Assembly: GCF_018917965.1 (NCBI RefSeq)
Contig: NZ_JAHLPP010000001.1
Span: forward strand, 682,001 to 746,000
Direction of reading: 5' to 3'
From: Pseudoflavonifractor sp. MSJ-37
GTDB lineage: Bacteria; Bacillota; Clostridia; Oscillospirales; Oscillospiraceae
DNA: 64,000 nucleotides
Shown here: positions 15,753 through 33,465 of the stretch, piece by piece
How the letters are laid out: the number at the start of each line of letters is the position of its first letter
Position numbering within the stretch: the first letter of the stretch is position 1
Notes under the pieces: model-generated
Databases searched by the model: none
Told to the model about the DNA's origin: nothing
Seen by the model: the letters and a program-made list of their open reading frames with translations, nothing else
Made by a program: the position numbers and the translations under genes

Positions 15753-17103
15753 ATGTTCGCTCATCGATCGGACGCTCCAGGCCGCGAAAAGGAACCAGAT
15801 GTCCAGCGCGGCGGTCGTCTCTTCCCGTCTGGACGATCGGGTCGCGCATCTGATGGAGCAGGCGAAGCAGAAATCAGACGAACTGCGTGCGGCGGAACAG
15901 AGGCTCGATGACCTCTATCCCGGACTTCTGGTGGAGGAAGTCTCCAAAGTGGAGTACGCCGTCTGGTTCCGTGAGATCGAGTCGTTCCTGCGGACGGCCT
16001 CCGGAGAGGACTACGATGCGGTCTGCTGCTATCTCGGTGGGCACGACTACCTGCCGACCGACCCAAAGTCCGTTCATATGGCGGCTTATACGATCATCGA
16101 GAACGCGGCGTTCTCCGTATGCCATTTCTACTATGACGGCTCGAAGCTCGACCGGCCCCGGTATCTGATCGGCGACGTGCGTGGTGAGGTCTACACGCCC
16201 GGCCTTGCGGATTGGGCGGACCGGAAGCGGAAGGAGAGAGCGGAGCGGTATCAGAGCAAGATCGACTTGGGAGGAGGGTTTTGTCCGAGGTCTCAGTGGC
16301 TTTTGGATGAGATCCACAAGCTCCAGGATGTGATGCGGCGCAAGAAGTATACCGACCCGTTGGGTCTGAAGCGGCCGATCATGAACACAGACCGCTTCCT
16401 CTATCGTACCATCAAAGGCGGTGGGGTCCAGAACTACTGGGAGGAGTTGAGCAGAGTCGTCTCGGAAGGGGGCGACTCGATCTATGACACGGTGAGCTGG
16501 CTCCTGGGTGAGATCGACTATGACCCGGCGGATCCGGATGCGGTCTCAGTCGTGACGGATCTCCTGCTCCAGAAGGCGACGGCTCCTCTGGACAGCCGGT
16601 TCACGGTCCCGCCGTATTACGGCGGCGGCTGGTCCCTGTATAAAGATGTGACCAGCGCGGTCGGCGGCGCCCCGGAACGTGTGGTGTCTGTGTCGTTGGC
16701 GCGGAGGGAGCGTCTGCGGAAGCTGAGGCGCAGCAAAAAGAACATCCCATTCATCCGATATGACTACGAGCTGATGTGCAAACTGAGCGAGATCATGCAC
16801 GCTCCGCCCTATCAGGAGGAGCGCGTTTTGGTATATGGGCCGCCGTTCGACAAGCTGGAATCCCAGGAGCAACACTCTGCAAGGATGCGCGTGGCAGAGC
16901 AAAAGGCGAAGGAGACGCAGAAAAAAGTCGCATGGAGTCTCGTTGCGTTCGCGTTCGTAGCGCTCGTGGTGTTTGCGATGGGAGCTGGCAATACGCTGGA
17001 AGAGGCGCTTGCCGGAGTCGTACCGATGTTCGCGGTCCCTGGCGGGATCGCAGCTATATGTGTCGGGATCTCGAAATACAGCGACTATGTCACTCATAAC
17101 TGA
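15718..17103 (+). CDS. Hypothetical protein with C-terminal membrane segments
   Basis: A 461-residue protein with no recognised domain. Residues 1-70 are predicted coiled coil (LDDRVAHLMEQAKQKSDELR). The middle part is soluble and rich in Tyr, Trp and Asp. A basic stretch (RRERLRKLRRSKKN) precedes a C-terminal region with two hydrophobic segments, the first AWSLVAFAFVALVVFAMGAG (about residues 400-420) and the second near 435-450. A membrane-anchored protein with a large cytoplasmic part is likely. It overlaps the upstream gene by 35 bases and is followed by a strong terminator. Function unknown. Confidence 0.6.
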   Translation: MNDCLESVLKSECSLIDRTLQAAKRNQMSSAAVVSSRLDDRVAHLMEQAKQKSDELRAAEQRLDDLYPGLLVEEVSKVEYAVWFREIESFLRTASGEDYDAVCCYLGGHDYLPTDPKSVHMAAYTIIENAAFSVCHFYYDGSKLDRPRYLIGDVRGEVYTPGLADWADRKRKERAERYQSKIDLGGGFCPRSQWLLDEIHKLQDVMRRKKYTDPLGLKRPIMNTDRFLYRTIKGGGVQNYWEELSRVVSEGGDSIYDTVSWLLGEIDYDPADPDAVSVVTDLLLQKATAPLDSRFTVPPYYGGGWSLYKDVTSAVGGAPERVVSVSLARRERLRKLRRSKKNIPFIRYDYELMCKLSEIMHAPPYQEERVLVYGPPFDKLESQEQHSARMRVAEQKAKETQKKVAWSLVAFAFVALVVFAMGAGNTLEEALAGVVPMFAVPGGIAAICVGISKYSDYVTHN

Positions 17104-17105
17104 TA

Positions 17106-17134
17106 AAAGCCGAGGCGTCCAGCCTCGGCTTTCT
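17106..17134 (+). terminator. Terminator of unknown-gene operon
   Basis: Perfect 11-bp stem (17106-17116 with 17122-17132), loop GTCCA, then TTTCT. It starts 3 bases after the stop of the 461-residue gene. Confidence 0.88.
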
Positions 17135-17139
17135 CATGC

Positions 17140-17235
17140 TCAAAAATAAGAGGGGAGTGGGATCCGGTGCATCAGGACCTTCCCGATGACCGTCAGGGTG
17201 GAGCTGGAGTCCGGGAGCAGGACGACGTTCGACAT
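17140..17235 (-). pseudogene. Possible remnant of a LexA/S24-like repressor C-terminus
   Basis: A minus-strand frame of 31 codons beginning MSNVVLLPDSSS and containing TLTVIGKVLMHRIP. The pattern of a hydrophobic strand followed by IGKV resembles the C-terminal end of S24-family repressors. It has no upstream body, and an apparent plus-strand promoter overlaps the region just beyond it. This is a weak similarity judged by eye. Confidence 0.2.
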
Positions 17236-17254
17236 CGCCCCCTCGGCATCCATC

Positions 17255-17283
17255 TTGTCAAAACACACCGGTGACGATATAAT
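17255..17283 (+). promoter_or_regulatory. Promoter of zinc-ribbon hypothetical gene
   Basis: TTGTCA (17255-17260), 17-base spacer, perfect TATAAT (17278-17283), ending 35 bases before the ATG at 17319. Confidence 0.75.
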
Positions 17284-17318
17284 GCTCTTGGAACGATCGA
17301 CGGAAAAGGGGCGATACC

Positions 17319-17972
17319 ATGCGCTGTCCATATTGCAGAAATCCGGTCAAGATCTCTAAATGGTTCGGAAATATATACCGCTGGGAGTGCGGCTGGTGCG
17401 GAAACTTCGGCGACTATATAGTGCTCCCGCCGGCGCGGAAGCAGATCTTCAAGGTGGATCTGGCCCAGACCTGGGCGGGGCTCCAGGAGGAGCTCCGGGC
17501 GGCTCTTCCGGGACTGTATGACGAACTGGCGCCGGACCTCGGGAAGGTGTTCCTCCATGAAGTGACCTCCGCCCTGATCCGCGGGCTGGACCCGCTGGAC
17601 GAAGAGAAGAAGGATGAGCTCTGGCTGTTCCTGGATGAGGCGGAGGGGCTGGGGTGCGCCTGCGGTCTGACAGACATCGAAGAGGCCGTGCGGCAGAAGA
17701 AGGCGCTCTACGCGGAGGAAGCGCTCCTGACGGCCAAGGACTGCGGGACCTTTTGGCAGGCGGTGGTGAAGACTGTCCCGACGGACACGCCGAAGAGAAG
17801 ATCGGAGCTGGACCCGCATCTGGAGCAGTTCCTGTGGGGATTGGCTTACCTCGGGACCTATTTCGACCGGGCGCCAGCCGGAAAGGAGGCGCTCCGCGCC
17901 GCGGAGGTCCGGTATGAGCTGCTGCGGGACCGCCTCGCCGAGTATTGGCGGGAGCACCTGTGCCGGACGTAG
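17319..17972 (+). CDS. Hypothetical protein with N-terminal zinc ribbon
   Basis: A 217-residue protein. Residues 3-27 hold two CxxC knuckles (CPYC and CGWC with a preceding Cys), which look like a zinc ribbon. The rest is helical and acidic, with a local run DEEKKDELWLFLDEAEGLG. I recognise no further domain. It is transcribed from its own near-consensus promoter and ends at a bidirectional terminator, so it is a single-gene unit at the right end of the unknown island. Function unknown. Confidence 0.6.
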   Translation: MRCPYCRNPVKISKWFGNIYRWECGWCGNFGDYIVLPPARKQIFKVDLAQTWAGLQEELRAALPGLYDELAPDLGKVFLHEVTSALIRGLDPLDEEKKDELWLFLDEAEGLGCACGLTDIEEAVRQKKALYAEEALLTAKDCGTFWQAVVKTVPTDTPKRRSELDPHLEQFLWGLAYLGTYFDRAPAGKEALRAAEVRYELLRDRLAEYWREHLCRT

Positions 17973-19726: not shown

Positions 19727-20791
19727 TCAGCCTGCGTTCATCAGGCGGACCCACTGGTCGTTGTAGAGGGTCCGGGTCTCAGCGGGGAGGACGTTGTAGA
19801 CCTCACACTGCTCGGTGGCGAACGTGGCGTCGGGGTAGGCGTAGGGATCGTTGGCCAGCTCCTCGTCCAGCTCCTCGCGGACGGAGAGCAGGGGGGAGGA
19901 GTAGTAGGTGGCCTCGCAGTTCTTCAGGCCCGCGTCGGTGGAGCACATGAAGTTGATGAAGGCCTCGGCGTTCTCCTTGTTCTCACAGCCCTTGGGGATG
20001 CACATGGCGTCCACATAGCGGTTGGTGCCCTCACGGGGCACGGCGAAGGCCAGATCCTCGTTGTTCTCGTGCATGGTCAGATAGTCGCCGTAGTAGTACA
20101 CGCCGATGGCGGCGTTGCCGCCCTCCATCTTCTCGAAAATATCATCCATGACATAGGCCTGGACCAGAGGACGCTGGGCGATCAGCTCATCCACAGCGGC
20201 AGTGATCTCAGCCTCATCGGTGGTGTTGTAGGAATAGCCCAGCTTCTTCAGCGCGATGCCGATGGTGTCCCGGGAGTTGTCGAACATGAGGATGTCCCCG
20301 GAATACTTCTCGTTCCACAGCACGTCCCACGTCTCCATGTCCTCGCCCTCATCCACCATGGTGGGGTTGTAGATGATGCCCAGCGTACCGAACATATAGG
20401 GTACGGAGTACAGGTTCTCGGGATCATAGGCGGGGTTTTTCAGAGTCTCGTCGATGTCGCTGAAATTGGGGATGTTGTCGAAGTCCAGCGGCTCCAGCAT
20501 ATCCTCCTCGATCATCTGGCCGATCATATAGTCGGAGGGGATGATCACGTCATAGCCGGTGGCGCCGCCGGCCAGCTTGCCGTAGAGGGCCTCGTTGGAC
20601 TCGAAGGTGGTGTAGTTGACCTTGATGCCGGTCTGCGCGGTGAAGTCATCGAAGATGGACTCGTCGATGTACTCACCCCAGTTGTAGACATTGACGACGC
20701 CGTTGGAGGCATCTGCGGCGGAGCCGCCGCCGCAGGCGGTCAGGCTCATGAGGCTGGCACCGGCCAGCGCGAGAGAGATCCACTTTTTCAA
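19727..20791 (-). CDS. potD: Spermidine/putrescine ABC transporter, substrate-binding lipoprotein PotD
   Basis: A 354-residue extracellular binding protein. The N-terminus is a lipoprotein signal peptide with lipobox LTAC (Cys20). The body is a family 1 solute-binding fold with the typical early VNVYNWGEYIDE strand, YDVIIPSDYMIGQM and PNFSDID motifs of PotD/PotF proteins. It captures polyamines for PotABC. It is last of four minus-strand genes potA-potB-potC-potD, with 77 bases between potC and potD. Choice between spermidine and putrescine cannot be made by eye. Confidence 0.95.
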   Translation of the reverse strand: MKKWISLALAGASLMSLTACGGGSAADASNGVVNVYNWGEYIDESIFDDFTAQTGIKVNYTTFESNEALYGKLAGGATGYDVIIPSDYMIGQMIEEDMLEPLDFDNIPNFSDIDETLKNPAYDPENLYSVPYMFGTLGIIYNPTMVDEGEDMETWDVLWNEKYSGDILMFDNSRDTIGIALKKLGYSYNTTDEAEITAAVDELIAQRPLVQAYVMDDIFEKMEGGNAAIGVYYYGDYLTMHENNEDLAFAVPREGTNRYVDAMCIPKGCENKENAEAFINFMCSTDAGLKNCEATYYSSPLLSVREELDEELANDPYAYPDATFATEQCEVYNVLPAETRTLYNDQWVRLMNAG

Positions 20792-20868
20792 TTCGATTCA
20801 GTTTGCTCCTTCCGATGTGGGATGATGATATCTTCAAGGCGTTCCGCCTCAAAGCCGGGGGGAGGGGG

Positions 20869-21723
20869 TCACTTGCCGTAGAGGGCCTTCCGGCGCTCCT
20901 GGGCCTGGCGGGCCTGATGGGCCTGCCGCAGGTTGAAGATCACCATGAGGATCACCACGGCTAGGAACATGAGGGTGCTCAGGGCGTTGATCTCCGGGCT
21001 GACCCGCTTCTTGGCCATGGAGTAGATCACCATGGACAGGGTCTGGGTCTGGGCGCCGGCGGTGAAATAGCTGACCACGAAGTCGTCGATGGACAGGGTG
21101 AAGGCCATGATGAGGCCATTGACCACGCCGGGCATGATCTCGGGCAGGACCACCTTCACGAAGGCGTGGAGACCGTGGTCGCCCAGATCCTGAGCCGCCT
21201 CATAGATGTTGGGGTCCAGCTGGCGCAGCTTGGGCGTGACGGACAGGATCACGTTGGGCACATCGAAGGTGATGTGGGCGATCAGCAGGGACCAGAAGCC
21301 CAGATTGAACCGCAGGCCCAGCGCCCGGCCGATGCCGCCGTTCCAGGCGTCCACCGCCAGGATGAAGAGGAGCATCATGCTCACGCCGGTGATGATGTCC
21401 GCGTTGGTCAGGGGGATGTTGTTGATGGTCATGCACACATTGCGGCTACGGCGCTTCATGTTGTAGAAGCCGATGGCCGCCGCGGTGCCCATGATGGTGG
21501 CGATCACCGCCGCGATGGCGGAGACCGCCAGCGTGATCCAGAGGGCGTTGAGGATCGCGGAATTGTCCAGCAGGTCCGCGTACCAGTCCAGCGTGAAGCC
21601 GGCCCACACCGCCCGGGATTTGGAAGCGTTGAAGGAAAAGACCACCAGCACCAGGATCGGGGCGTACAGGAAGAGAAAGCACAGGGCCAGGAACAGCCGG
21701 CTGAGGATACCGTTCTTTTTCAC
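20869..21723 (-). CDS. potC: Polyamine ABC transporter permease PotC
   Basis: A 284-residue inner membrane permease with six transmembrane segments and the cytoplasmic EAA loop (YEAAQDLGDHGLHAFVKVVLP). It begins with GTG at 21723, which overlaps the potB stop by 4 bases (GTGA), so the two are translationally coupled; a GGAGAGGAGGG site lies about 10 bases upstream. PotC partners PotB to form the channel for polyamines delivered by PotD and driven by PotA. Confidence 0.93.
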   Translation of the reverse strand: MKKNGILSRLFLALCFLFLYAPILVLVVFSFNASKSRAVWAGFTLDWYADLLDNSAILNALWITLAVSAIAAVIATIMGTAAAIGFYNMKRRSRNVCMTINNIPLTNADIITGVSMMLLFILAVDAWNGGIGRALGLRFNLGFWSLLIAHITFDVPNVILSVTPKLRQLDPNIYEAAQDLGDHGLHAFVKVVLPEIMPGVVNGLIMAFTLSIDDFVVSYFTAGAQTQTLSMVIYSMAKKRVSPEINALSTLMFLAVVILMVIFNLRQAHQARQAQERRKALYGK

Positions 21724-22529
21724 AGCGTGACGCCCTCCTCTCCATCGCCGAAGTGGTTCATGACAGCCATGCAGACCATGACGATGACCATCATGACCAG
21801 AGACACCGCCGAGCCAAGATGGGGGTTGTAGGCGCTGCCCAGGAACTGCATATCGATCAGGTTGCCCAGCAGGAGGGTCTTGCTGCCGCCCAGCAGGCGG
21901 GAGATCGCGAAGGTGGACACCGAGGGGATGAACACCATAGTGATGCCGGACAGCACACCGGGGAGGGACAGGGGGAAGATCACCCGGCGGAACACGGTGA
22001 CGCTGTTGGCGCCCAGATCCTGAGCCGCCTCCACCACCTTGGGGTCGATCTTGGCGATGACCGAGAAGATGGGGAGCACCATGTAGGGCAGATAGTTGTA
22101 CACCATGCCCAGCACGATGGCGCCCTGGGTGTCGATCATCTGGAAGGGCCCCAGGCCGATCAGGCCGAACAGGGTGTTGAGGAGACCGTTGCGCTCCAGC
22201 AGGAACTTCCAGGAGTAGGTCCGCAGGAGGAAGTTCATCCACATGGGCAGCATGATGAGCATGGTGGCCATGCGGTGGATCCAGCCCCGCTCCCGGGCCA
22301 GGAAGTAGGCCAGGGGATAGCCTGCCAGCAGGCAGACCACTGTGGCCACCGCGGCCAGCAGGAAGGAACGGCCAAAGGCGGTGGCGTACTGGGCCATGCT
22401 GTGGAAGTTCTCCAGCGAGAAGCCGCCGCCCGCCGCCGTGAAGGCATAGACGACGATGATGACGATGGGGGCCACCACGAAGAGGGCCATCCACGCCACA
22501 TAGGGATAGGAGATGGCTTTACTCTTCAT
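21720..22529 (-). CDS. potB: Polyamine ABC transporter permease PotB
   Basis: A 269-residue permease with six hydrophobic segments. The EAA coupling motif is [21 protein letters not shown] near residue 180 (shown in part as [19 protein letters not shown]). I chose the ATG at 22529, giving N-terminus [16 protein letters not shown]; the longer in-frame reading lies inside potA. Its first codons overlap the potA stop by 11 bases and its stop overlaps potC, so potA, potB and potC are tightly coupled. Confidence 0.93.
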
Positions 22530-23646
22530 CGTCGTCCGCCTCCCGATCCTCGTTGAGCTCGTCATACTCAGAGGAGTAGGAGCTGTAATCACCGAACATA
22601 CCGGAATAGCGGCTCTTCTTCATGATATGGAAGCCGTCGGGGTCGATCTTCACCCCGATCTTCGCCCCCTCGGGGGAGTAGTCTGTGGTCTGGATCAGCC
22701 ACTTGAAGCCCTGGAAGTCCACGATGATGTCGTAGTGCATCCCCTTGAAGGTGACCTCCGTGACGGTGCCGGTGAGCTGGCCCTGCTCCACAGGGACGAT
22801 GTCGATGTCCTCGGGGCGGACCACCACGTCCACGGGCTCGTTGGGGGCGAAGCCGCTGTCCAGACAGGGGAACTTCTTGCCGTACATCTGGATCACGCCG
22901 TCCTGCACCATGATGCCGTCGATGATGTTGGACTCGCCGATGAAATCGGCCACGAAGGCGTTCTTGGGCTCATTGTAGATGTCCTGCGGAGTGCCGATCT
23001 GCTGGATGTTGCCCTTGTCCATGACCACCACGGTGTCGGACATGGTGAGGGCCTCTTCCTGATCGTGGGTGACATAGATGAAGGTGATGCCCACCTGCTG
23101 CTGGATGCGCTTCAGCTCCACCTGCATATCCTTGCGGAGCTTCAGGTCCAGGGCGCCCAGAGGCTCGTCCAGCAGGAGGACCTGGGGGCGGTTGACGATG
23201 GCCCGGGCGATGGCCACCCGCTGCTGCTGGCCGCCGGAGAGCGAGTCCACAGCGCGCTTGCCATAGCCGGCCAGGTTGACCAGCTCCAGAGCCTCCTCCA
23301 CCCGCGTCTGGATCTCCGGCTCCGGCACTTTGGCGATGCGCAGGCCGAAGGCCACGTTCTCGAAAATGTTCATATGGGTGAAGAGAGCATACTTCTGGAA
23401 GACCGTGTTGATCTTCCGCTTGTAGGGCGGCATATCATTGATCCGTTTGCCGTCGAAGAACACATCGCCGGAGGTGGGCTTCTGGAAGCCTCCGATGATG
23501 CGCAGGGTCGTGGTCTTGCCGCAGCCGCTGGGTCCCAACAGCGTAAGGAACTCCTTGTCATTGATATAGAGATCGATGTGATCCAGGATGACATCGTCGT
23601 CGAACTGCATATACAGGTCGGACAGACGGATCAACTCTTTTGCCAT
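22519..23646 (-). CDS. potA: Polyamine ABC transporter ATP-binding protein PotA
   Basis: A 375-residue ATPase. Walker A is GPSGCGKTT (about residue 38), the signature is [14 protein letters not shown], Walker B is [12 protein letters not shown]. The C-terminal third is the TOBE-type regulatory domain seen in PotA ([12 protein letters not shown]), followed by an unusual acidic tail (last 25 residues, many Asp/Glu) not needed for catalysis. It is first in the potABCD operon. A promoter and a strong hairpin lie in the 160-base leader upstream. Confidence 0.96.
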
Positions 23647-24865: not shown

Positions 24866-26051
24866 TCAGGGGCGCTCCGCCGCCCAGCGGCAGAGAGCCT
24901 GGTCCATCCGCTCCCCCGTCAGGAGCGGCACCTGGTCCCAGTGGAGGCAGCTGGACACAGCGGGGTGGGGGAGATCCGTCCGCCACCGCCACTGGAGGGG
25001 CGGGAGATGGGTGATGAGCGGGTCCGCGATGGCTCCCTGGAACTGCCCGGCCTTCAGGAGGCGGAGCAGATGGGCCTCGCCCTCCAGAGCCAGGTCGCCG
25101 GGAGCGGTCAGCGCGGGGTCCAGACCGAAGAAGCTGGCCACGGAGAGAGGACGCGGGTCCCCGTTCAAAAGAAGGGCCGCGCGCAGAGGATCGGCCATCA
25201 CCTGATCGCCCACCAGCAGGAGAGGGTGACGGTCGGGGGAGGAGGGGGCTTGCTGGGTGTCTCGCAGAACGCGGCTCTTCCCATCCCGCAGAGCATCCCG
25301 GAGGAGCTCGGCCACCCGGTCGGCACACCGGGAGTCGATGGGGACCCCGGCCACATAGGGGATGCCCCAGCGCTGCTCCAGCTCCCGGGCGGCCCGGAGG
25401 CCGCTGCGGGACACCACCAGAGAGACCTGGGCGGAGGCGGCCCGGCGGACCTGCTCCAGACAGGTCCCCATGGCCAGAGAGCTGACCACGGAGAAGCCTC
25501 GGGCCGCCAGCGCGTCCCGGATGGCGCCGTCATTGCCGCCGGCGCCGAAGTCCAGAGGGGTCAGCCCCAGGATCGTGACGCCGTTGGGGACCGGCCGCTC
25601 CGGCGGACGCGTGAAACGCCTGATCAGAGCGGAGAGAGCCATCTCCACGCCCCGGTCGTAAGTGGAGAAGCCAGTGGTGGAGAAGCCCAGTGTGGGGATC
25701 CCGGTCCGAGCCTCCACCTCCCGGGCGATGCCGGGGAAGTCGGTGCCGATGATGGCGGGCACAGGACTGCCCAGCAGGGCGATGAAGTCCGGGTGATGCT
25801 CTTCCGCGGCCTGGACGGCCTTGTCCACCAGCTTATCGTCCCGCCCCAGGACCGCGTCCAGGGTGCGGTCCTGGGCGCAGAGGGTGGTACGGCGCGTTCG
25901 GTCCCAGCGGGGCTCATCGTAGTCCACATAGTTCCGGGTACAGCAGGAGGCGTCCTGGATCAGGATTAGACAGTTGAAGTCGAAGAGCGCGGAGCACACG
26001 CCGGAGTAGTCCCCGGCGAAGGGGGGGGAGATAGATCGAGAGCTGTCCCAT
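24866..26051 (-). CDS. Nitrogenase component 1-like protein (NifK/NifN-like), frameshifted near its start
   Basis: About 395 residues of nitrogenase component 1-type oxidoreductase. The natural start is ATG at 26049-26051, after GGAGGTG and 3 bases past the upstream stop, giving MGQLSIYLPP. A run of eight Cs (8 Gs at 26021-26028 on the plus strand) then throws the frame; seven Cs would restore FAGDYSGVCSALFDFNCL and the rest of the protein. Corrected numbering puts cysteines at 19, 27, 36 and 37 (QDASCCTRNYVDYDEPRW), plausible Fe-S ligands like those of P-cluster-type proteins. It is last of an operon with a NifH-type Fe protein and another component 1 protein. The shift may be real decay, slippage or a sequencing error. 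Confidence 0.8.
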
Positions 26052-26054
26052 GGT

Positions 26055-27251
26055 TCACCTCCAGGAAGTCGTATGGAGCGCCGCCTCAGCGATCCGCTCC
26101 ATGAGCCGGACCACGCCGTGGTAGCCGAAGAGCCCCTCGTCCCGTTGGATGTCCACGAAATGGCGGGCCCGGAGCAGATAGGCGCTGTCGTAGCCGATGG
26201 CCAGACAGTTCCGGGGGATGCCGCAGGCGGTGATGTCCTCGTAGCGCTCACTGCACAGGACCGGGAGGTCCGGGAGCTGGGCGGTCAGCCAGTCCCGGTC
26301 GGCCCGGTCGGTCTCCTTCCAGTGGGCGGCGTAGACGGCTCGGAGCTGGAAGCCGTACCGGTGGAGGGCGGCGGCCAGGGCGAAGGGCTGCATAGCGGCG
26401 GAGGAGTCCACGACCACTGGCAGGTCTCGGGCACAGCCGAGCGCTCCGGCGATGGCCTGCTCTGCCGCCTGACGCTCCGCCGTCAGCGGGGGACAGGGCG
26501 CCCCCAGCGCGTCGGCAATGGTCTGGTAGTTGGCACGGATCTGGTCCAGGTCATAGGTGGCGGGGAGGAAGCGCCAGGGGATCCCCAACCGCTCTTCCAG
26601 CTTCTGGGCGGCGAAGCGCCCCATCTGCATGAGCACCAGGTCCAGACGGCTGGCGGCCATCTGCTGGTAGTCCTCATAGGTGGTCCGGTCGGTGATGGAG
26701 CGCACCTCGGTGACGCCGCAGGCCCGCAGGAAGGGATAGAGCTCCGAGGCCGGGTCCGGCTGGACGAAGGTCCCCAGCAGGTTGACGCCGCCATCCTTCT
26801 CCCGGGGGCGCAGGAAGGAGTACAGCCGTTCCTGCTGGCGCATCCCGGGAGGGATCGGGCCGTCCATGGCCACCGGATCGATGTGGAACACGGCGAAGGC
26901 TGTGTCCGGAAAACGGGCCTCCAGACCTGCCACCAGAGCGTCCTCGTCGGTGCCCAGAAAGTCGTCGATACAGTTCACATAGATCTGGAAGGCCCGGGGG
27001 CGGGGGGAGAGGAGCTCCAGCAGATCGGCCACCGCGTCGCCTACCATGTCCTCATATCCGCCGGAGCTCACATCGGCCTCGGTGATATAAAGGAAGGAGA
27101 CGTGCTCCTTGGTGCCGTTGCGGATGGCCCGGATACCGCTCCTCCGGCCGCAGGCGGCGGGACATACATGGAGGCTGTGGCTCTCCGGGATCCGCAGGCT
27201 GATCTTAGGCCGGCCGTGGTGCGGGATGAAATAGGACAGACCCTCACTCAT
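26055..27251 (-). CDS. Nitrogenase component 1-like protein (NifD/NifE-like)
   Basis: A 398-residue protein of the nitrogenase component 1 superfamily, shorter than NifD (about 480-490). Candidate cluster ligands are Cys30 and Cys34 (HVCPAACGRR) and Cys94 (VNCIDDFLGTD), the latter matching the family's Cys-Asp-Gly-Asp type motif after the second strand. The start at 27251 overlaps the end of the NifH-like gene by 8 bases. No FeMo-cofactor ligand pair (Cys275/His442 of NifD) is evident by eye. With the Fe protein it should form an electron-accepting heteromer with the next gene's product. Substrate unknown. Confidence 0.85.
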   Translation of the reverse strand: MSEGLSYFIPHHGRPKISLRIPESHSLHVCPAACGRRSGIRAIRNGTKEHVSFLYITEADVSSGGYEDMVGDAVADLLELLSPRPRAFQIYVNCIDDFLGTDEDALVAGLEARFPDTAFAVFHIDPVAMDGPIPPGMRQQERLYSFLRPREKDGGVNLLGTFVQPDPASELYPFLRACGVTEVRSITDRTTYEDYQQMAASRLDLVLMQMGRFAAQKLEERLGIPWRFLPATYDLDQIRANYQTIADALGAPCPPLTAERQAAEQAIAGALGCARDLPVVVDSSAAMQPFALAAALHRYGFQLRAVYAAHWKETDRADRDWLTAQLPDLPVLCSERYEDITACGIPRNCLAIGYDSAYLLRARHFVDIQRDEGLFGYHGVVRLMERIAEAALHTTSWR

Positions 27252-27999
27252 GACCGCACACCTCCAGCATACGCGCCGCCAGAGCGCGGTAGGCGTCCGC
27301 CATGGGGGAGGCGGGCAGGGCATCCATGACGGTCCGGTCCATGGACTCCGCCTCCTGCACCGCCGGGGAGCGGGGGAGATCGGCGAGGATAGAGGTGCCC
27401 AGCTCTCCGGCCAGACGCTCCACCTGTTCCCGCTCCCGCGCCACGTTCCGGCGGTTGAGGATGAGCCCGCCGAAGCGGGCATAGCCCCGATCTTGGAAGC
27501 GGGCCACCGCCCCGGCGATGTTGGACGCGGCGTACATGGACATCATCTCACCAGAGGTCACCACGAAGACTACATCGGAGTACTCGCCCCGCAGAGGCAT
27601 GGCGAAGCCGCCGCAGACTACGTCCCCCAGCACGTCGTAGAGCACTACGTCCGGCCGGTAGACGCCGTAGGCATCCAGTTGGCTCAGAGTCTCGAAGGCG
27701 GTGATGATGCCCCGTCCGGCACAGCCGATGCCAGGCGTGGGCCCGCCGGCTTCTACGCAGAGGACGCCGCCCACGCCGGGGTGGACCAGATCCTCCAGAG
27801 CGGGGGTCCCGCCGGAGCGGAGCAGGTCCAGTACCGTCGGGATGGGGGCCCCGCCGGTCAGGAGCCGGGTGGAATCGGACTTGGGGTCGCAGCCGATCTG
27901 CATCACCCCCAGCCCTCGCTCCCGCAGGGCCAGAGACAGGTTCGCGGTGGTGGTGGATTTTCCGATGCCGCCTTTGCCGTAGATGGCGATCCGTAACAT
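27244..27999 (-). CDS. NifH-type Fe protein (nitrogenase reductase-like ATPase)
   Basis: A 251-residue P-loop ATPase. Walker A is YGKGGIGKSTT (residues 7-17). Cys93 (GIGCAGRG) and Cys129 (DVVCGGFAMP) match the two cysteines that bridge a [4Fe-4S] cluster between subunits in NifH, BchL and CfbC. Asp/Lys in CDPKSDST fit switch I. The C-terminal tail of NifH is missing, so it is shorter than NifH (about 275-290). The ATG at 27999 follows GGAGGT with a 7-base gap. It should pass electrons with ATP hydrolysis to the two component 1 proteins directly downstream. Confidence 0.92.
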   Translation of the reverse strand: MLRIAIYGKGGIGKSTTTANLSLALRERGLGVMQIGCDPKSDSTRLLTGGAPIPTVLDLLRSGGTPALEDLVHPGVGGVLCVEAGGPTPGIGCAGRGIITAFETLSQLDAYGVYRPDVVLYDVLGDVVCGGFAMPLRGEYSDVVFVVTSGEMMSMYAASNIAGAVARFQDRGYARFGGLILNRRNVAREREQVERLAGELGTSILADLPRSPAVQEAESMDRTVMDALPASPMADAYRALAARMLEVCGHE

Positions 28000-29213
28000 A
28001 GCGATGACCTCCGGTGGAAGATATAGGCCGTTTTGTCGCAAAACGGGCCGTTCAGAACGATAGGGACAGATGGCAGACGAGGACCGTCCCTGCCCGGCAG
28101 ATCCCGGGCGGGGCGGTCCTGTCGTTTTCGAAGATACAGGAGCGGGGATCGACCGATGATCTTGGCGATCTCCTCGTCGGTCATATCATAGAGGAAGTAG
28201 TGGGAGTAGAAGTCCCGGACGTCCTGGGTCAGCTCCTCAGTGGAGTACAGGTCAGGATAGAGCTTGTTCAGGGTCCACAGGATGGTCAGGGGCTGCTCCA
28301 CGGTGCGGTTGCCCCAGACATGAGCCACGGTGGGCACATAGTAGATGGCGTCGTCCCGGATAGCGGTGATGCCGGAGAGCTGGCTGTCGGCCTTGAGCTC
28401 GTCGGCCTGCTTGGAGGTGACCAGCATCACGTCGGGATCCCACTGGAGCAGGTCCTCGGTGGTGTAGGTCAGTGACTCCTCCGTGTGGGCGTCTTTGGTG
28501 ACGCTGATGCCGCCGGCGGCCTCGATCCACCACTCGGCGATCATATGGGGCTGAGAACGGCCCGCCACATCGCCGTAGAGGACCGTCTTGCGGGTCTCGT
28601 CGGTGAGGCCGGAGGTCAGCTCCGCAGCACGGGCCACGGTATCGTCAAAGTAGGTGATGTAGTCCCCGGCCACGTCCTGTTTGCCAAGGATATCGCCCAT
28701 GAGCTCTACGGCGGTCTTGACGTCCCCCACCTCGGACCAGGACAGGTAGACACAGGTCAGGCCCTTGTCGGCCAGCTCCTCGGCGGTGGACTTGGTCATG
28801 GTGAGGCACAGGTCGGGCTTGAGCTTGAGGACCTCTTCGATCAGCACCTCACGGTCGGCGTTCTCCAGCACGGGACCGTCGGCGATCTGGGGGGCGAACT
28901 TGTACTGCATGGCCCATTTGTCGTTCTTGGTGAAGCTGGGGGCCATCTCGTTGCAGATCTTGTCGCCGCAGCCCATGAGCTCGACGAACGCGTTGAGCAC
29001 GCCCACCGCGCCGAAGGTGGCGATGGAATCGATCTCGGCGGGGATCTCCACCTCGCGACCGGCCATGTCGGTGATGGTCCGGGTGCCGGAGACCGCGGCA
29101 CTCTCGGTGGGAGCGGGGGCGGCGGACTGGGCGGAGCCAGTGCCGGAGCAGCCGGCCAGAGTGCTGCTCAGGATGCTCACGGAGAGCAGGGAAGCGATCA
29201 GTTTACGGTCCAT
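27903..29213 (-). CDS. Class III ABC transporter substrate-binding lipoprotein (BtuF/FepB/MolA-like)
   Basis: Extracellular binding protein with a lipoprotein signal (lipobox TLAGC, Cys22 from the 29213 start) and a two-lobe helical-backbone fold: TITDMAGREVEIPAEIDSI, then KPDLCLTM, then WDPDVMLVTSKQADEL and RDDAIYYVP. The start could be 29222 or 29213; AGGAGG spacing favours 29213. The usual end near DEEIAKIIG (about 28160) is followed by no stop; the frame runs 85 more codons and 97 bases into the NifH-like gene. This suggests a lost stop. Nearby moeA and mobA-modE suggest molybdate or tungstate (as MolA of Haemophilus), but iron or a metal chelate is equally possible. Confidence 0.85.
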   Translation of the reverse strand: MDRKLIASLLSVSILSSTLAGCSGTGSAQSAAPAPTESAAVSGTRTITDMAGREVEIPAEIDSIATFGAVGVLNAFVELMGCGDKICNEMAPSFTKNDKWAMQYKFAPQIADGPVLENADREVLIEEVLKLKPDLCLTMTKSTAEELADKGLTCVYLSWSEVGDVKTAVELMGDILGKQDVAGDYITYFDDTVARAAELTSGLTDETRKTVLYGDVAGRSQPHMIAEWWIEAAGGISVTKDAHTEESLTYTTEDLLQWDPDVMLVTSKQADELKADSQLSGITAIRDDAIYYVPTVAHVWGNRTVEQPLTILWTLNKLYPDLYSTEELTQDVRDFYSHYFLYDMTDEEIAKIIGRSPLLYLRKRQDRPARDLPGRDGPRLPSVPIVLNGPFCDKTAYIFHRRSSLCYGSPSTAKAASENPPPPRTCLWPCGSEGWG

Positions 29214-29251
29214 GTGTTTCATTTCCTCCTAAAATGGTCGTCGTTGGGGAT

Positions 29252-30043
29252 CTATCGTGACTGACGGAGCAGGGGCACGCAGACAGGGACGGGAGGCATC
29301 CCATCCACCGAAGCGGTACTGACGCACACAGGCGTCTGGTAGAGGGCGGTGAGGGCCTCCGTGGTGACTACGTCGCCGGGAGCGCCCCAGGCCATGACCC
29401 GGCCGTCCCGCATGAGGACGGCCTTGGTGCAGACCAGGAAGGCGTGGTCGGGATAGTGGGACGTCATGAGGATGCCGTAGCCGGACTGGGCCAGCTCGTC
29501 CACCACCCGGAGGATCTTCACCTGATTGCCATAGTCCAGATTGGCGGTGGGCTCGTCCATGACCAGATAGTTGGCCTGCTGGGCCAGGGCCCGGGCCACC
29601 AACACCATCTGACGCTCGCCGCCGGAGAGCTCCTGGAACTTTCGGCGGGCCAGATGACCGATCTGGAGACGGTCCAGAGCTTCGGCCACCGTGTCGTGGT
29701 CCGCCTGTCGGTAGGACGCACCCGGCGGCAGGTGGGGGACCCGCCCCATGAGGACCACCTCACGGACCTCATAAGGGAAGGCCATGGCGGTGGACTGAGG
29801 GACATAGGCCAGCCGTTTGGCTCTGCCCCGATGGGAGAGATGGGACAGGCTCTGTCCGTCCAGCACGACCTCGCCGCCCTTGGCCTGGCTCAAACCGAGG
29901 AGACAGCGGAGGAGGGTGGTCTTTCCAGTGCCGTTGGGCCCCAGCAGACAGAGGATGTCGCCGCCCTCCAGCGCGAAGGACACGTCTTCCAGTACCGGTC
30001 GTCCGGGCTGGTACCAATAGCGCAGATGTTCGATGGAAAGCAT
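29252..30043 (-). CDS. Class III ABC transporter ATP-binding protein (FecE/BtuD/MolC-like)
   Basis: A 263-residue ATPase. Walker A is GPNGTGKTTLL (about residue 37), the Q-loop is YVPQS, signature LSGGERQMVLVARAL, Walker B YLVMDEPTANLD. This is the FecE/FepC/BtuD subfamily. The start ATG shares one base with the permease stop (TGATG), so coupling is tight. With the permease and binding protein it forms one importer for metal chelate, cobalamin or oxyanion. Confidence 0.93.
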   Translation of the reverse strand: MLSIEHLRYWYQPGRPVLEDVSFALEGGDILCLLGPNGTGKTTLLRCLLGLSQAKGGEVVLDGQSLSHLSHRGRAKRLAYVPQSTAMAFPYEVREVVLMGRVPHLPPGASYRQADHDTVAEALDRLQIGHLARRKFQELSGGERQMVLVARALAQQANYLVMDEPTANLDYGNQVKILRVVDELAQSGYGILMTSHYPDHAFLVCTKAVLMRDGRVMAWGAPGDVVTTEALTALYQTPVCVSTASVDGMPPVPVCVPLLRQSR

Positions 30044-31083
30044 CAGGACCACACCTTCCTCGTCTGGGACAGCAGGAGCACGAACACCGGCGTGCCCACC
30101 AGCGCGGTGACGACGCCCAGGGGCAGGTCTACGCCGAAGGAGCCCCGGATCAGGTCGTCGATGAAGAGCAGGAACAGTCCGCCCACCAGGAAGGACGTGG
30201 AGGCCAGACGGTGATAGGAAGCCCCTGTCAGCAGACGGGCGATATGAGGCACTACCATGCCGATCCAGCCGATGATGCCGCACACGCTGACCGAGGAGAC
30301 CGTCAACAGGGTGGAGGACACGATGACCACCAGCTTGACCAGGGGCACATCGACCCCCATGGAGGCGGCCTCGTCCTCGCCGGCGGCCAGCGCGTCGATG
30401 GAGTGGCGGAAGAAGAACAGCAGGAGCAGGGAGACCACGGCCGCGGGCAGGAGGACCAACACGTCCTGCCCGTCCGCCTTGCCTAGACTGCCCATGAGCC
30501 AGAAGGTGATGGAGGGGAGGGCGTCATCCGGGTCAGCCAGCGTCTTGATGATAGAGAGGAGGGCCTGGAACAGGCTGGACACCACCACGCCCGCCAGGAC
30601 CAGGATGGTCAAGTTGTCGCCGCCGAACATCCGGCTGATGAGGTAAGCTGCCGCCACCGCCAAGACACCGAAGCAGAAGGCGGAGAGCTGAGTCTGCCAC
30701 CAGCTCATCCTCCACAGCATGGTGAGGGCCGCGCCGAAGCCCGCTCCGGCGGAGACGCCCAGGATATCCGGAGAGACCATGGGGTTCTTGAATAGGGTCT
30801 GGTAAGACGCGCCGGAGATGGACAGAGCTCCGCCCACCAGCAAAGCGGCCAGGATCCTGGGGAGGCGGACCTCCATGACCACTGTGATCAGAGTGTCCTC
30901 CACTGGAAGTGTCCGATGCAGGAGGCTGGCCCGGATGATGTCGAATACCGTGCCCGGCTCCACCGGGTAGCGCCCGATCAGGAAGGAACCGAAGAAAGCC
31001 GCCACCCACAACAGGGCAAAGAGGAGCGTCTTGAGCCAGAACCCATGGGAGGGATCCCGCTCAGAAGAAAGTCGTCGTTCCAT
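30043..31083 (-). CDS. Class III ABC transporter permease (FecCD/BtuC/MolB-like)
   Basis: A 346-residue membrane protein with about ten hydrophobic segments typical of FecCD/BtuC permeases. Diagnostic pieces are RLPRILAALLVGGALSISGA and the cytoplasmic loop GWIGMVVPHIARLLTG that contacts the ATPase, plus LARLVGA-type closing LPLGVVTALVGTPVFVLLL. It lies 4 bases after moeA and couples to the ATPase gene. The role is transport of a chelated or oxyanion metal across the cell membrane; substrate inferred from context only. Confidence 0.93.
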   Translation of the reverse strand: MERRLSSERDPSHGFWLKTLLFALLWVAAFFGSFLIGRYPVEPGTVFDIIRASLLHRTLPVEDTLITVVMEVRLPRILAALLVGGALSISGASYQTLFKNPMVSPDILGVSAGAGFGAALTMLWRMSWWQTQLSAFCFGVLAVAAAYLISRMFGGDNLTILVLAGVVVSSLFQALLSIIKTLADPDDALPSITFWLMGSLGKADGQDVLVLLPAAVVSLLLLFFFRHSIDALAAGEDEAASMGVDVPLVKLVVIVSSTLLTVSSVSVCGIIGWIGMVVPHIARLLTGASYHRLASTSFLVGGLFLLFIDDLIRGSFGVDLPLGVVTALVGTPVFVLLLSQTRKVWS

Positions 31084-31087
31084 TCGA

Positions 31088-32311
31088 TCACACCAGCGGG
31101 GGGATCCCGGAGATCAGCTCGGGGGCCTTGAGGAGCTCCGCCTTCACCAGATCGCCGGCGGCATAGCCCTCCACGCCGATGGGGACGGTGACGAAGGCGT
31201 CGGTCTGGTAGAGGAGGGCGGGGACGCCGTCCAGCTTCCAGTCCAGCGGCGTGGCAGTGAACTCCGTCCCATCCCAGGCCAGAGCCACCCGGGAGATCCG
31301 CTCGAAGCTCTTGGGGGACTTCATGGGCTCGGTGAGCCGGGCAGTGACAGTGGGGGCCAGCGGGGCAGGGAGGCCGTAATAGTGGGCCGTCAGGGCGGAC
31401 AGACACCAGTAGGCCGCCAGATAGCAGGCGCCCACGGGGCCGGGGACGTTGAGCACGGGCTTCCCGTCGATCATAGAGAGCCCGGCGGGACGGCCGGGGA
31501 CCGCCCGGATGCCGTGGCGAAAGAAGGAAGCGCGGCGCTCCAGCATGGCGGCGTTGAAGTCCTCCTCGCCCCGGGAGGTACCGTCGTTGATGAGGATCAG
31601 GTCGGCGGCGGTGAGGGCCTGGTCCAGCGTGCGCTCCAGAGCGGCGGGGTCATCCTTGGTGATGGAGAACACCTGGACCTCCGCGCCGTACCGGCCCAGA
31701 TAGCCGGAGAGGAGGCTGTTGACCTCGATGTTCTGGCCCCGCTGAGGCTTCTGACCGGCGGGGATCAGCTCGCTGCCGGTGGGCAGGAACGCGATCTTCA
31801 GAGGCCGGAAGACGGGGACCTCCGTGATGCCGCCCATGGCCAGAGAGGCCACCAGCTCCGGCGTCAGCCGGGTATGGGCGGGGACCAGGAGGGCGCCGGA
31901 GCGGACCAGGTCTCCCGCGGGGGCCACGGTCACCTCGTCCGGGTCGAAGCGGAAGCCCTCCCGGAAGCGGACGCCGTCCCCCTCCAGGATCACGTCCTCC
32001 ACCGCGATGACCGTATCGAAGGCGTCGGGGAAATCATCGCCGGTGTCGGCCTGGACGAAATCACGGCCCTTCACCCAGCGGGAGGGATCGGGCAGGCCGT
32101 CAGCGAAGTCGGCTTTGCGGACCGCGATGCCATCGAAGCGGGAGGAGCGGACCACGGGCAGGGTGTTCACGGAGGTCAGGTCCTCCGCGGTGACCCGGCC
32201 CAGGCTCTGGGTCAGAGGGATCCGTTCGAGCTCCGGGGCCGGCTTCCAATGAGCTCGCATGAGGTCCAGTGCCTCTGAGCGGGTGACGCTGCGTTCCGGT
32301 TCGAATTTCAC
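31088..32311 (-). CDS. MoeA-like molybdopterin molybdenumtransferase
   Basis: A 407-residue MoeA-family protein, which inserts molybdate into adenylated molybdopterin. The fold-defining segments are present: RSSRFDGIAVRKAD replaces the usual SAMDGYAV motif, PTGSELIPAG replaces STGDEL, and NDGTSRGEEDF stands where GGVSxGDYD is normal. These substitutions at the active-site loops mean it could be a divergent paralogue rather than the main MoeA. It is the first gene of the apparent operon with the ABC importer and nitrogenase-like proteins. A promoter is seen about 70 bases upstream. Confidence 0.85.
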   Translation of the reverse strand: MKFEPERSVTRSEALDLMRAHWKPAPELERIPLTQSLGRVTAEDLTSVNTLPVVRSSRFDGIAVRKADFADGLPDPSRWVKGRDFVQADTGDDFPDAFDTVIAVEDVILEGDGVRFREGFRFDPDEVTVAPAGDLVRSGALLVPAHTRLTPELVASLAMGGITEVPVFRPLKIAFLPTGSELIPAGQKPQRGQNIEVNSLLSGYLGRYGAEVQVFSITKDDPAALERTLDQALTAADLILINDGTSRGEEDFNAAMLERRASFFRHGIRAVPGRPAGLSMIDGKPVLNVPGPVGACYLAAYWCLSALTAHYYGLPAPLAPTVTARLTEPMKSPKSFERISRVALAWDGTEFTATPLDWKLDGVPALLYQTDAFVTVPIGVEGYAAGDLVKAELLKAPELISGIPPLV

Positions 32312-32381
32312 GATGATGCATCCTTTCTCTTTGTTCTGATCGTTCTGACGCTCTGGTATGAATGCGCCGATCGATATGCTC

Positions 32382-32410
32382 TATATAAGACTTTAAAAAA
32401 CGAATCGCAA
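32382..32410 (-). promoter_or_regulatory. Promoter of moeA-importer-nitrogenase-like operon
   Basis: On the minus strand: TTGCGA (32405-32410), 17-base spacer, TATATA (32382-32387), about 70 bases before the moeA-like start. The spacer and flank are AT-rich, unlike the surrounding sequence. Confidence 0.6.
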
Positions 32411-32478: not shown

Positions 32479-33393
32479 TCAGTCGGCACTGGGATGGTCG
32501 GAGAAGATCTCGTCATAGGCCTGCCGGACCATGGCCTGACAACGTTCCTCCAGGGCTCGGAACCGGTCGATCAGGTCCTTGCCGTAGTCGGTGAGGAAGG
32601 CGGCGCCGCCGTTCCGCCCGCCCTGCTGGCGCAGGACGACGGGCTTGCCAAGCTCATCCTCCATGATGAGGATCATGTGCCGGCCCTTGCTGTAGGAGAG
32701 GCCCATCTGCTGGCAGGCCTCCCGGACGGAGCCGGTGATCTCGATGAGGCTGAGGAGCTGTGCGGAGCCGGGGCCGAAAAAGGGCCGGTCGCCGCAGAGG
32801 CGCAGCTTGACGGTGGCGTGGATGCCGTGCGCCTGGCTCCGGGCCAAAAGCTGGGGGAAGAGGCCCATGGCGCGGGCCTGAGGCAGGGCACCCTCGTCCT
32901 CCAGAGGCAGGGGCGTCACCTGTCCCAACAGGTCCTCCAATGTGCCCATCTTCTCCAGCAGGACGGAGAGGGCCGCGGCCGGATCCACAGAGAGGATGCC
33001 GCCCGGCCGACCATCGATGACGGGACGGCACACAGGCGCCTCGGACTCCAGCAGGGCCTTCACAGAGGTCTGGGACAGGAAGGGGATATCGGCGGCGGTC
33101 AGAAGGACCCGGCCGCACAGCGGCGCGAGGAGCTCCAGCCCCCGGCGGAGCTGCTCCTCCGGGCTGGCCTGGGGAGAGACCTCCACGCAGAGGACGCCCC
33201 AGTGGGACATATGCTTTTCCATGGCCTCCCGGCCCCGGGCGGGGACGGGGAGCACCACATGGCGCACGCCGCTGAGCTGGAAGGTGCGAACCAGACGCTG
33301 GAGCACCGAACAGGAGCCCAGGACCTCCATAGAGTCGAAGGAGCCTGTTCGGGAGAAGGATGTAGTGGTCAGGATGACGGCTCCGGCAGTCAT
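32479..33393 (-). CDS. MobA-like nucleotidyltransferase fused to ModE-type DNA-binding domain
   Basis: A 304-residue fusion. Residues 1-185 resemble the MobA/MocA NTP-transferase fold (start MTAGAVILTT, and LLTAADIPFLS for the metal-binding Asp), but the usual GGxSxRMGxxK loop is degenerate (TTTSFSRTGSF), so catalysis is uncertain. Residues 195-304 are a winged-helix like the N-terminal half of ModE: GSVREACQQMGLSYSKGRHMI and QGGRNGGAAFLTDYG. No TOBE/Mop molybdate-binding repeat follows. It may be a molybdenum- or cofactor-state-responsive regulator of the operon downstream. It has its own promoter. Confidence 0.8.
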   Translation of the reverse strand: MTAGAVILTTTSFSRTGSFDSMEVLGSCSVLQRLVRTFQLSGVRHVVLPVPARGREAMEKHMSHWGVLCVEVSPQASPEEQLRRGLELLAPLCGRVLLTAADIPFLSQTSVKALLESEAPVCRPVIDGRPGGILSVDPAAALSVLLEKMGTLEDLLGQVTPLPLEDEGALPQARAMGLFPQLLARSQAHGIHATVKLRLCGDRPFFGPGSAQLLSLIEITGSVREACQQMGLSYSKGRHMILIMEDELGKPVVLRQQGGRNGGAAFLTDYGKDLIDRFRALEERCQAMVRQAYDEIFSDHPSAD

Positions 33394-33435: not shown

Positions 33436-33465
33436 ATTATAACATAGGCCGATCCAGATCGTCAA
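33436..33465 (-). promoter_or_regulatory. Promoter of mobA-modE fusion gene
   Basis: On the minus strand: TTGACG (33460-33465), 18-base spacer, TATAAT (33436-33441). Confidence 0.75.

Follow-up and report, generated by a model that had tools for sequence, protein, structure and literature searches.

What would a nitrogenase-like enzyme reduce when its genes are packed together with a class III metal importer? The question is raised by an operon of Pseudoflavonifractor sp. MSJ-37 (Oscillospiraceae; NCBI RefSeq assembly GCF_018917965.1), located in a 64,000-nucleotide stretch of contig NZ_JAHLPP010000001.1 (positions 682,001 to 746,000, forward strand), here called the window. The operon represents a real lineage, with few close matches, of a known but uncharacterized kind of nitrogenase-like system, and its most likely function is the importer-fed reduction of a metal complex. 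We assign a probability of roughly 0.45 to the specific reading, drawn from sequence, that it encodes an ATP-driven reductase of an imported metal complex, linked to molybdenum or tungsten in this lineage. Seven minus-strand genes running from 32311 to 24866 were identified from open reading frames (ORFs) and Pfam matches, bearing out the identities given in an initial annotation of this DNA. A MobA-ModE fusion lies 167 bp upstream of the MoeA-like gene; the initial annotation had it as a mere neighbor, and it proved to be the first gene of a conserved eight-gene unit. The genes are as follows.

32479..33393, minus strand: MobA-like nucleotidyltransferase fused to a ModE-type DNA-binding domain (NTP_transf_3, 36 bits; ModE_repress, 61.7 bits, under its curated cut-off of 98.5)
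31088..32311, minus strand: MoeA-like protein, a divergent paralog (Pfam MoeA N, middle, and C domains)
30043..31083, minus strand: FecCD/BtuC-type ABC permease (PF01032, 286.9 bits)
29252..30043, minus strand: ABC ATPase of FecE/BtuD/heme type (PF00005, ABC_tran, 111 bits; best NCBIfam model PRK09536 at 221 bits, missing its cut-off of 537)
28148..29222, minus strand: substrate-binding protein (PF01497, Peripla_BP_2, 58 bits), with a lipobox-like LAGC noted by eye; the frame stays open to 27903
27244..27999, minus strand: NifH-type Fe protein (P0001; PF00142, Fer4_NifH, 296 bits)
26055..27251, minus strand: component-1 A (P0002), with Cys30, Cys34, and Cys94 (PF00148, Oxidored_nitro, 81.7 bits; best PDB match NifE)
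26021..26028, minus strand: run of eight C at the component-1 B start, between its ATG and the in-frame domain
24866..26017, minus strand: component-1 B, in-frame part (PF00148, Oxidored_nitro, 93.9 bits; family profile best matched in the PDB by NifE)

Spacing within the block largely follows the initial description of overlaps or gaps of 30 bases or less (MoeA to permease, 4 bp; permease to ATPase, −1; ATPase to binding protein, 29; Fe protein to component-1 A, −8); the exception is the gap from binding protein to Fe protein, which comes to about 145 bp if the former ends as in its relatives.

No curated Nif, Bch, or Cfb cut-off was reached by the Fe protein or by either component-1 protein. 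The Fe protein scored 312 bits against CfbC (its best NCBIfam model; cut-off, 402), 307 against NifH (TIGR01287; cut-off, 394), and 192 against BchL (cut-off, 345), while components A and B scored 31 and 61 bits against NifE (cut-off, 505) and B scored 51 against BchB (cut-off, 490). PDB searches with the two component-1 family profiles found NifE chains best, at 93 and 127 bits (the top chain, of 919 residues, was matched twice). In the Fe-protein tree (127 rows, 126 different; BchL outgroup), 108 family rows formed one branch (support, 98) separate from the NifH rows, with the window in a five-row focal clade (96) together with loci L054, L034, L055, and L056. In the component-1 tree (FastTree, midpoint root, long branches meeting; the other trees were quick searches), the A family (119 rows; support, 85, or 98 for 116 of them) and the B family (121 rows; support, 100) both lay apart from the NifD/K/E and BchN/B references; across the trees, one BchL, one BchN, and one BchB were included as references.

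The Fe protein retains Cys93, Cys129, and the P-loop (Walker A), as first noted, and all are invariant across 20 aligned sequences, the window's included. Cysteines of component-1 A were counted in 115 sequences (113 distinct) after nif-like rows and weak matches had been dropped. Cys34 and Cys94 were each present in 115/115 and aligned with NifD C88 and C154 (Azotobacter numbering); Cys30 was found in 5/5 focal rows and in 51/56 rows of the related Hyd-type group described below. The column of NifD Cys275 held Cys in 1/115 sequences (Met in the window), and that of His442 held His in none of the 115 (Val in the window); judged from the alignment, the FeMoco (iron-molybdenum cofactor) ligands are absent from component-1 A. 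Component-1 B carried a cysteine of the NifD C88/NifK C95 type in 118/121 sequences and Pro at the NifK C153 column in 114/121. This pattern would fit one interface [4Fe-4S] cluster with substrate bound directly. The cysteines first listed for A (30, 34, and 94) stand, while the numbering given for B (19, 27, 36, and 37) assumes a continuous frame that is absent from the DNA.

A nitrogenase proper, fixing N2, is consequently rejected as highly improbable, the Fe protein lying under the NifH cut-off and the FeMoco ligands being missing: the 307 bits to the NifH model speak for it, but the proteins also fall outside NifH/D/K/E in the trees, and a genome search for the NifH family gave one full-length gene plus two short partial matches. 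The initial annotation had likewise considered classical fixation unlikely. That the set stands apart from known clades holds for Nif and Bch by cut-offs and trees; for Mar and Cfb it was judged only by the missing Cys275 and the CfbC score.

Relatives place the importer at the center of the system. Locus L054, from a metagenome-assembled genome, has all eight genes in the same order at 57 to 83% identity, and, apart from ORFs antisense to these genes, none of its other ORFs passed the match filter against the window; because the eight genes are kept and the flanks are unmatched, the unit extends from MobA-ModE to component-1 B. The importer neighborhood reported at first is conserved more widely. 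Within 6 kb of component-1 genes at 60 distinct importer-type loci (one duplicate removed, labelled genes counted), a binding protein occurred in 44, a permease in 42, and an ATPase in 42. Two pairs of entries are the same loci and were counted once (L037 and L059; L040 and L095, from G150 and G206). Clustering gave a similar picture for 61 loci without Hyd or Hyp genes, a set that includes some short contigs, Hyd-type fragments, and nif loci (binding protein within 6 kb in 46, permease in 43, ATPase in 43), with no further family found within 6 kb in more than 7 of the 61. Gene order shifts among importer-type loci while the gene set persists, and since that set recurs in many genera, chance is excluded. 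Component-1 A was matched at E ≤ 1e-5 in 31 of 200 family-sample genomes, the strain's own included. On plasmid pSPTER of Sporomusa termitida (L180), importer and nitrogenase-like genes lie between TonB-dependent receptors in a cluster that also carries an AraC regulator, two permeases, and a PF00756 esterase, a layout like that of siderophore uptake. At L060 (6047-6895), near importer-type genes, a partial Avs5-like match was seen (79.5 bits; cut-off, 1000).

The importer is thus the constant partner, a metal complex its likeliest cargo, and molybdenum or tungsten the likeliest metal in the window's lineage. Beyond what the sequences give directly (gene set, importer linkage, cysteine pattern, and absent FeMoco ligands), we infer the stoichiometry, cluster, direct substrate binding, metal identity, and MoeA role as follows. 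The class III (FecCD-type) importer would bring a small metal complex into the cell, where the NifH-type Fe protein, a predicted P-loop dimer with one bridging [4Fe-4S] cluster, would deliver electrons to component-1 A/B with ATP hydrolysis. The A/B heteromer would hold a single interface [4Fe-4S] cluster, and the substrate would bind directly in its cavity, DPOR-like, for want of a FeMoco site. Reduction would free or re-ligate the metal. For the window's lineage, a link of this complex to molybdenum or tungsten is probable; the divergent MoeA paralog would take the product, and MobA-ModE would serve as sensor or regulator.

The importer models also bear on a different substrate. The best permease and ATPase models were BtuC and corrinoid or heme ATPases, every one below cut-off, which favors a corrinoid or heme, taken up by the importer, as the molecule reduced, either at the metal or at a double bond of the ring, as in DPOR or CfbCD; the absent FeMoco ligands and DPOR-like cluster layout suit such a tetrapyrrole reductase as well. 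We consider it unlikely: the recurrent neighbors are importer genes only (among rarer neighbors, chosen ones were named), and both component-1 families lie outside BchN/B.

For the molybdenum- or tungsten-linked reductase, the evidence on the metal comes from MoeA and the binding protein. The MoeA-like protein of the window lies under the NCBIfam MoeA cut-offs (PRK10680, 142 of 440 bits; PRK14498, 224 of 534), and elsewhere in the genome a higher-scoring MoeA at C1:36608 (156.7 versus 79.9 bits) sits near MoaA (C1:33972); the operon's MoeA is therefore a divergent extra copy. Divergent MoeA-like genes also occur near related clusters in Sporobacter termitidis and two Acetobacterium. PDB homologs of the binding protein were 4ovk, 9ht5/9hrj, and MolA HI1472 (3psa), followed by iron/siderophore and nickel binders.

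Several observations weigh against this reading. Close component-1 A matches (E ≤ 1e-70) are few, in 1 of 394 order-sample genomes (the strain's own) and 6 of 200 family-sample genomes. The MolA match (E, 7e-10) is weaker than those to binders of unstated ligand, and because siderophore and nickel binders follow MolA, the ligand is not fixed. MoeA lies within 6 kb in 4/60 distinct importer-type loci and MobA-ModE in 2/60, and the 8.4-kb contig of the near relative L034 shows no MoeA; MoeA was accordingly rejected as a defining partner, while the molybdenum or tungsten link of the initial annotation stays plausible, with MobA-ModE and MoeA kept in L054 and MoeA-like genes near relatives. The Sporomusa type branches in a distant subclade, and its substrate may differ. 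In component-1 A, a His stands two columns off His442 in 46/115 sequences, the window included, and that ligand column rests on a loose alignment. Finally, two irregular frames may signal a decaying or mis-assembled operon copy.

The first is in component-1 B, whose ATG at 26051 is out of frame with its domain, the eight-C run lying in between. The window has two C/G runs of 7 or more, these eight C at 26021-26028 and eleven G (plus strand) at 49620; the former is a possible phase-variable or error-prone site. The second is in the binding-protein ORF, which passes the point where L054 and L034 stop (...IIG) by about 80 codons, to 27903, and enters the Fe-protein gene in another frame. These irregularities may be sequencing error, decay, or slippage, and relatives with intact genes exist. 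That the strain expresses no working complex from a decaying or mis-assembled copy seems to us improbable: a start out of frame at a homopolymer and a missing stop are what such a copy would give, but the remaining frames are open, the cysteines are intact, and a homopolymer error is equally likely because the draft assembly is in 18 contigs.

The nearest relatives by tree extend the question beyond the window. The focal Fe-protein clade was sister (support, 90) to a 41-row Hyd-type clade (96), so that the nearest context is H-cluster maturation, outside the systems that the initial annotation had considered. There, in many relatives, nitrogenase-like genes are interleaved with HydE, HydF, HypF, HypD, and HypE (over cut-off among scanned proteins: HydE, 3/3; HydF, 2/2; HypD, HypE, and HypF, one each) and are also adjoined by aspartate ammonia-lyase and a TM1266-type regulator. 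An ORF between HypF and HypD is HypC-like by motif in 6/6 loci inspected and in 2 more by pattern. Two layouts occur. One carries the importer, in the order TM1266, permease, ATPase, HydE, Fe protein, component-1 A, component-1 B, binding protein, and HydF (e.g., L100, L104, and L133). The other runs TM1266, HydF, HydE, Fe protein, component-1 A, component-1 B, Fe protein, component-1 A, component-1 B, HypF, HypC, HypD, and HypE, the partner here being HypCDEF plus a second nitrogenase-like set; Ruminococcus albus AR67 (L126 and L191) shows it with three extra ORFs between HydF and HydE. Among 56 distinct Hyd-type loci, 24 had Hyp genes, 22 had importer genes, none had both, and 10 had neither in view. 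This exclusion is partly inherited, with at least two switches, and two suffice on the Hyd-type tree, where L139/L141 form a long branch and the importer group includes L088, itself long-branched and lacking Hyd genes in view.

HydG proved rare in genomes with the Hyd-type set. From 80 named loci, 50 genomes were tested (34 Hyd-type, 16 importer-type). The 34 Hyd-type genomes had HydF in 33, HydG over cut-off in 2, an [FeFe]-hydrogenase (E ≤ 1e-50) in 32, and a [NiFe] large subunit (E ≤ 1e-10) in 2; the 16 importer-type genomes had HydF in 11 and HydG in 9. A [NiFe] large subunit was found in 1 (L085) of 18 named Hyp-bearing genomes tested (Hyp-bearing loci include L126, L101, L103, and L116), and blocks with HypF-HypD-HypE, often with HydE and HydF too, occur in [FeFe]-hydrogenase genomes. 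In the family sample, 45 of the 200 genomes were tested for HydF and HydG and 19 had HydF over cut-off: all 10 without HydG carried Hyd-type genes (divergent in L139 and L141), and no Hyd-type genes were seen in the 9 with HydG. Altogether, HydF-positive genomes had HydG in 2/43 cases with Hyd-type genes versus 18/19 where these were not seen (Fisher p, 1.9e-12; kinship uncorrected, completeness figures lacking for the 50 named genomes, a shared genome counted once), "not seen" being defined by one component-1 A query and Fe-protein counts, with two Fe-protein genes of Sporobacter termitidis not included. C. citroniae, drawn as importer-type, has a Hyd-type cluster too and no HydG, and was counted as a Hyd-type carrier in the final test. 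Exceptions to the pattern are L091 and L096, which have Hyd-type genes and HydG, and Pyramidobacter (L067), which has HydF and no HydG and in which no Hyd-type set was seen; the L116 genome has a HydG-like match below cut-off (222 bits).

Since HydG is rare where the Hyd-type set is present, our proposal is that this set may take its place. On sequence grounds, we hold it about an even bet that the sister clade substitutes for HydG by making or remodeling a CO/CN-ligated iron synthon for HydE and HydF. This complex, a nitrogenase-like Fe protein with its two-subunit partner, would be fed de novo by HypCDEF and the second nitrogenase-like complex or, alternatively, by an imported iron complex (salvage). 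As the importer and the Hyp module alternate, both may meet the same need, perhaps for a CN/CO-bearing iron precursor. The window operon would then be the importer-fed sister, its product passed to the MoeA paralog. Replacement of HydG by the window operon itself was rejected, since HydE, HydG, and HydF lie together at another place in its genome. Two further observations concern the Hyd-type group. Its component-1 A (e.g., L040, L041, L043, and L051) has a C-terminal GLGCxxC-type motif, both cysteines of which occur in 82 to 88% of the Hyd-type rows filled there, and which the window's protein does not have. By BLAST labels, Loigolactobacillus rennini (L115), a lactobacillus, carries the set with HydF, adjoined by a short ModE-like ORF and a second FecCD-type importer.

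For the window, the sister relationship lends some weight to a role in organometallic assembly, in which the complex would make or process a ligand set or synthon of Fe-CO/CN type, destined here for something other than the H-cluster. The HydE, HydF, and HypCDEF genes around the Hyd-type sets are in its favor, as are HmdB-like radical-SAM genes near the Sporobacter, Acetobacterium paludosum, and Desulfosporosinus relatives, which scored 99 to 149 bits, below the cut-off of 321 (L056:5853-6935 and 16812-17843; L066:12265-13296; L065:341-1399). The complete HydE-HydG-HydF set already present in the genome tells against it, as do the lack of any recognized Hyd or Hyp gene in the operon and the absence of HydF from 5/16 importer-type genomes tested, and we regard it as doubtful, on a par with tetrapyrrole reduction.

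Two predicted elements accompany the operon.

33436..33465, minus strand: promoter-like site TTGACG-18-TATAAT with TG, upstream of MobA-ModE (consensus scan, 11/12; predicted)
28076..28123, minus strand: G+C-rich hairpin in the transcript between binding protein and Fe protein (111-nt fold)

The 111-nt fold had −40.3 kcal/mol and a z of −1.76, with 13/200 shuffles equally good, so an RNA element ahead of the Fe-protein gene is weakly suggested; Rfam at gathering cut-offs returned one tRNA and nothing else. Reading the ORF translations by eye, we assigned genes at 19727-23646, downstream of the operon, to a spermidine/putrescine-type ABC importer.

Anaerobes commonly carry nitrogenase-like enzymes whose substrate is unknown, and a function has been assigned to few members of group IV; the context found here narrows the problem to a FeMoco-free reductase supplied by an importer. 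More would be gained from the sister group and its bearing on HydG. The observations new here are the sister clade amid HydE/HydF genes, the rarity of HydG there, and the alternation of importer and Hyp module. If true, a HydG substitute would account for [FeFe]-hydrogenase genomes in which hydG is missing (Ruminococcus albus AR67, for example) and perhaps also for the Clostridium acetogens reported to have none (of which Clostridium muellerianum, L085, was examined here); it would give the H-cluster a second natural route of synthesis and link the Nif-like, Hyd, and Hyp organometallic pathways to one another.

Such neighborhoods had been noticed before, which the initial annotation did not take into account: Dos Santos et al. 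(2012; PMC3464626) describe nitrogenase-like proteins beside ABC transporters in some cases and beside hydrogenase maturation genes in others, and suggest that they couple the transport of metal to the building of a cofactor or help to assemble metalloclusters. According to PMC9431212, five of eight acetogenic clostridia have HydE and HydF without a typical HydG, and five have HypCDEF without HypA or HypB, four being shared with the HydG-less five; the paper has no simple explanation to offer and considers an atypical radical-SAM candidate and free diatomics, a puzzle for which the proposed nitrogenase-like replacement of HydG provides a testable answer. Further papers cover the accepted HydG-HydE-HydF route with its ammonia-lyase link (PMC11736057), Isr, Mar, and Cfb (PMC11423573), Mar-like genes (PMC10418091), and R. 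albus hydrogenases (PMC6776011). Among the matches listed from the open literature, with subscription papers mostly outside, no paper joined nitrogenase-like genes with HydG loss.

The closest known system is the Firmicutes/archaeal NifHEN-like group of 2012 (PMC3464626), which has alpha cysteines of C88 and C154 types, one beta C95 type, and no FeMoco ligands, all found here too, with adjoining ABC transporters and some members beside hydrogenase maturation genes; HydG absence, the importer/Hyp alternation, and the MoeA/MobA-ModE lineage were not met in the sections consulted. BchLNB (DPOR) also has an Fe protein and two unlike component-1 subunits, no FeMoco site, and a single interface [4Fe-4S] cluster (probable for the window), but the window proteins are under the BchL/N/B cut-offs and separate in the trees. 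In DPOR, an Asp of subunit B ligates the cluster. Ligation by Asp is given in PMC3464626; the window has two to three Cys in A and one in B. CfbCD shares the best Fe-protein model (CfbC, 312 bits) and alpha C88/C154-type cysteines, but the cut-off of 402 was missed and no F430 context was seen around the window genes. CfbD is a homodimer (PMC11423573), unlike the two dissimilar subunits here. Mar and Isr share the HDK layout and group IV type, but no radical-SAM gene is among the window's eight. The sulfur-linked group that includes R. rubrum corresponds to Mar. Cys275, which PMC3464626 reports in the sulfur-linked group, is missing from the window's component-1 A. MolABC and other class III metal importers share the FecCD permease and PF01497 binding protein, with MolA among the homologs, a likeness by homology; what distinguishes the window importer is its linkage to a nitrogenase-like set.

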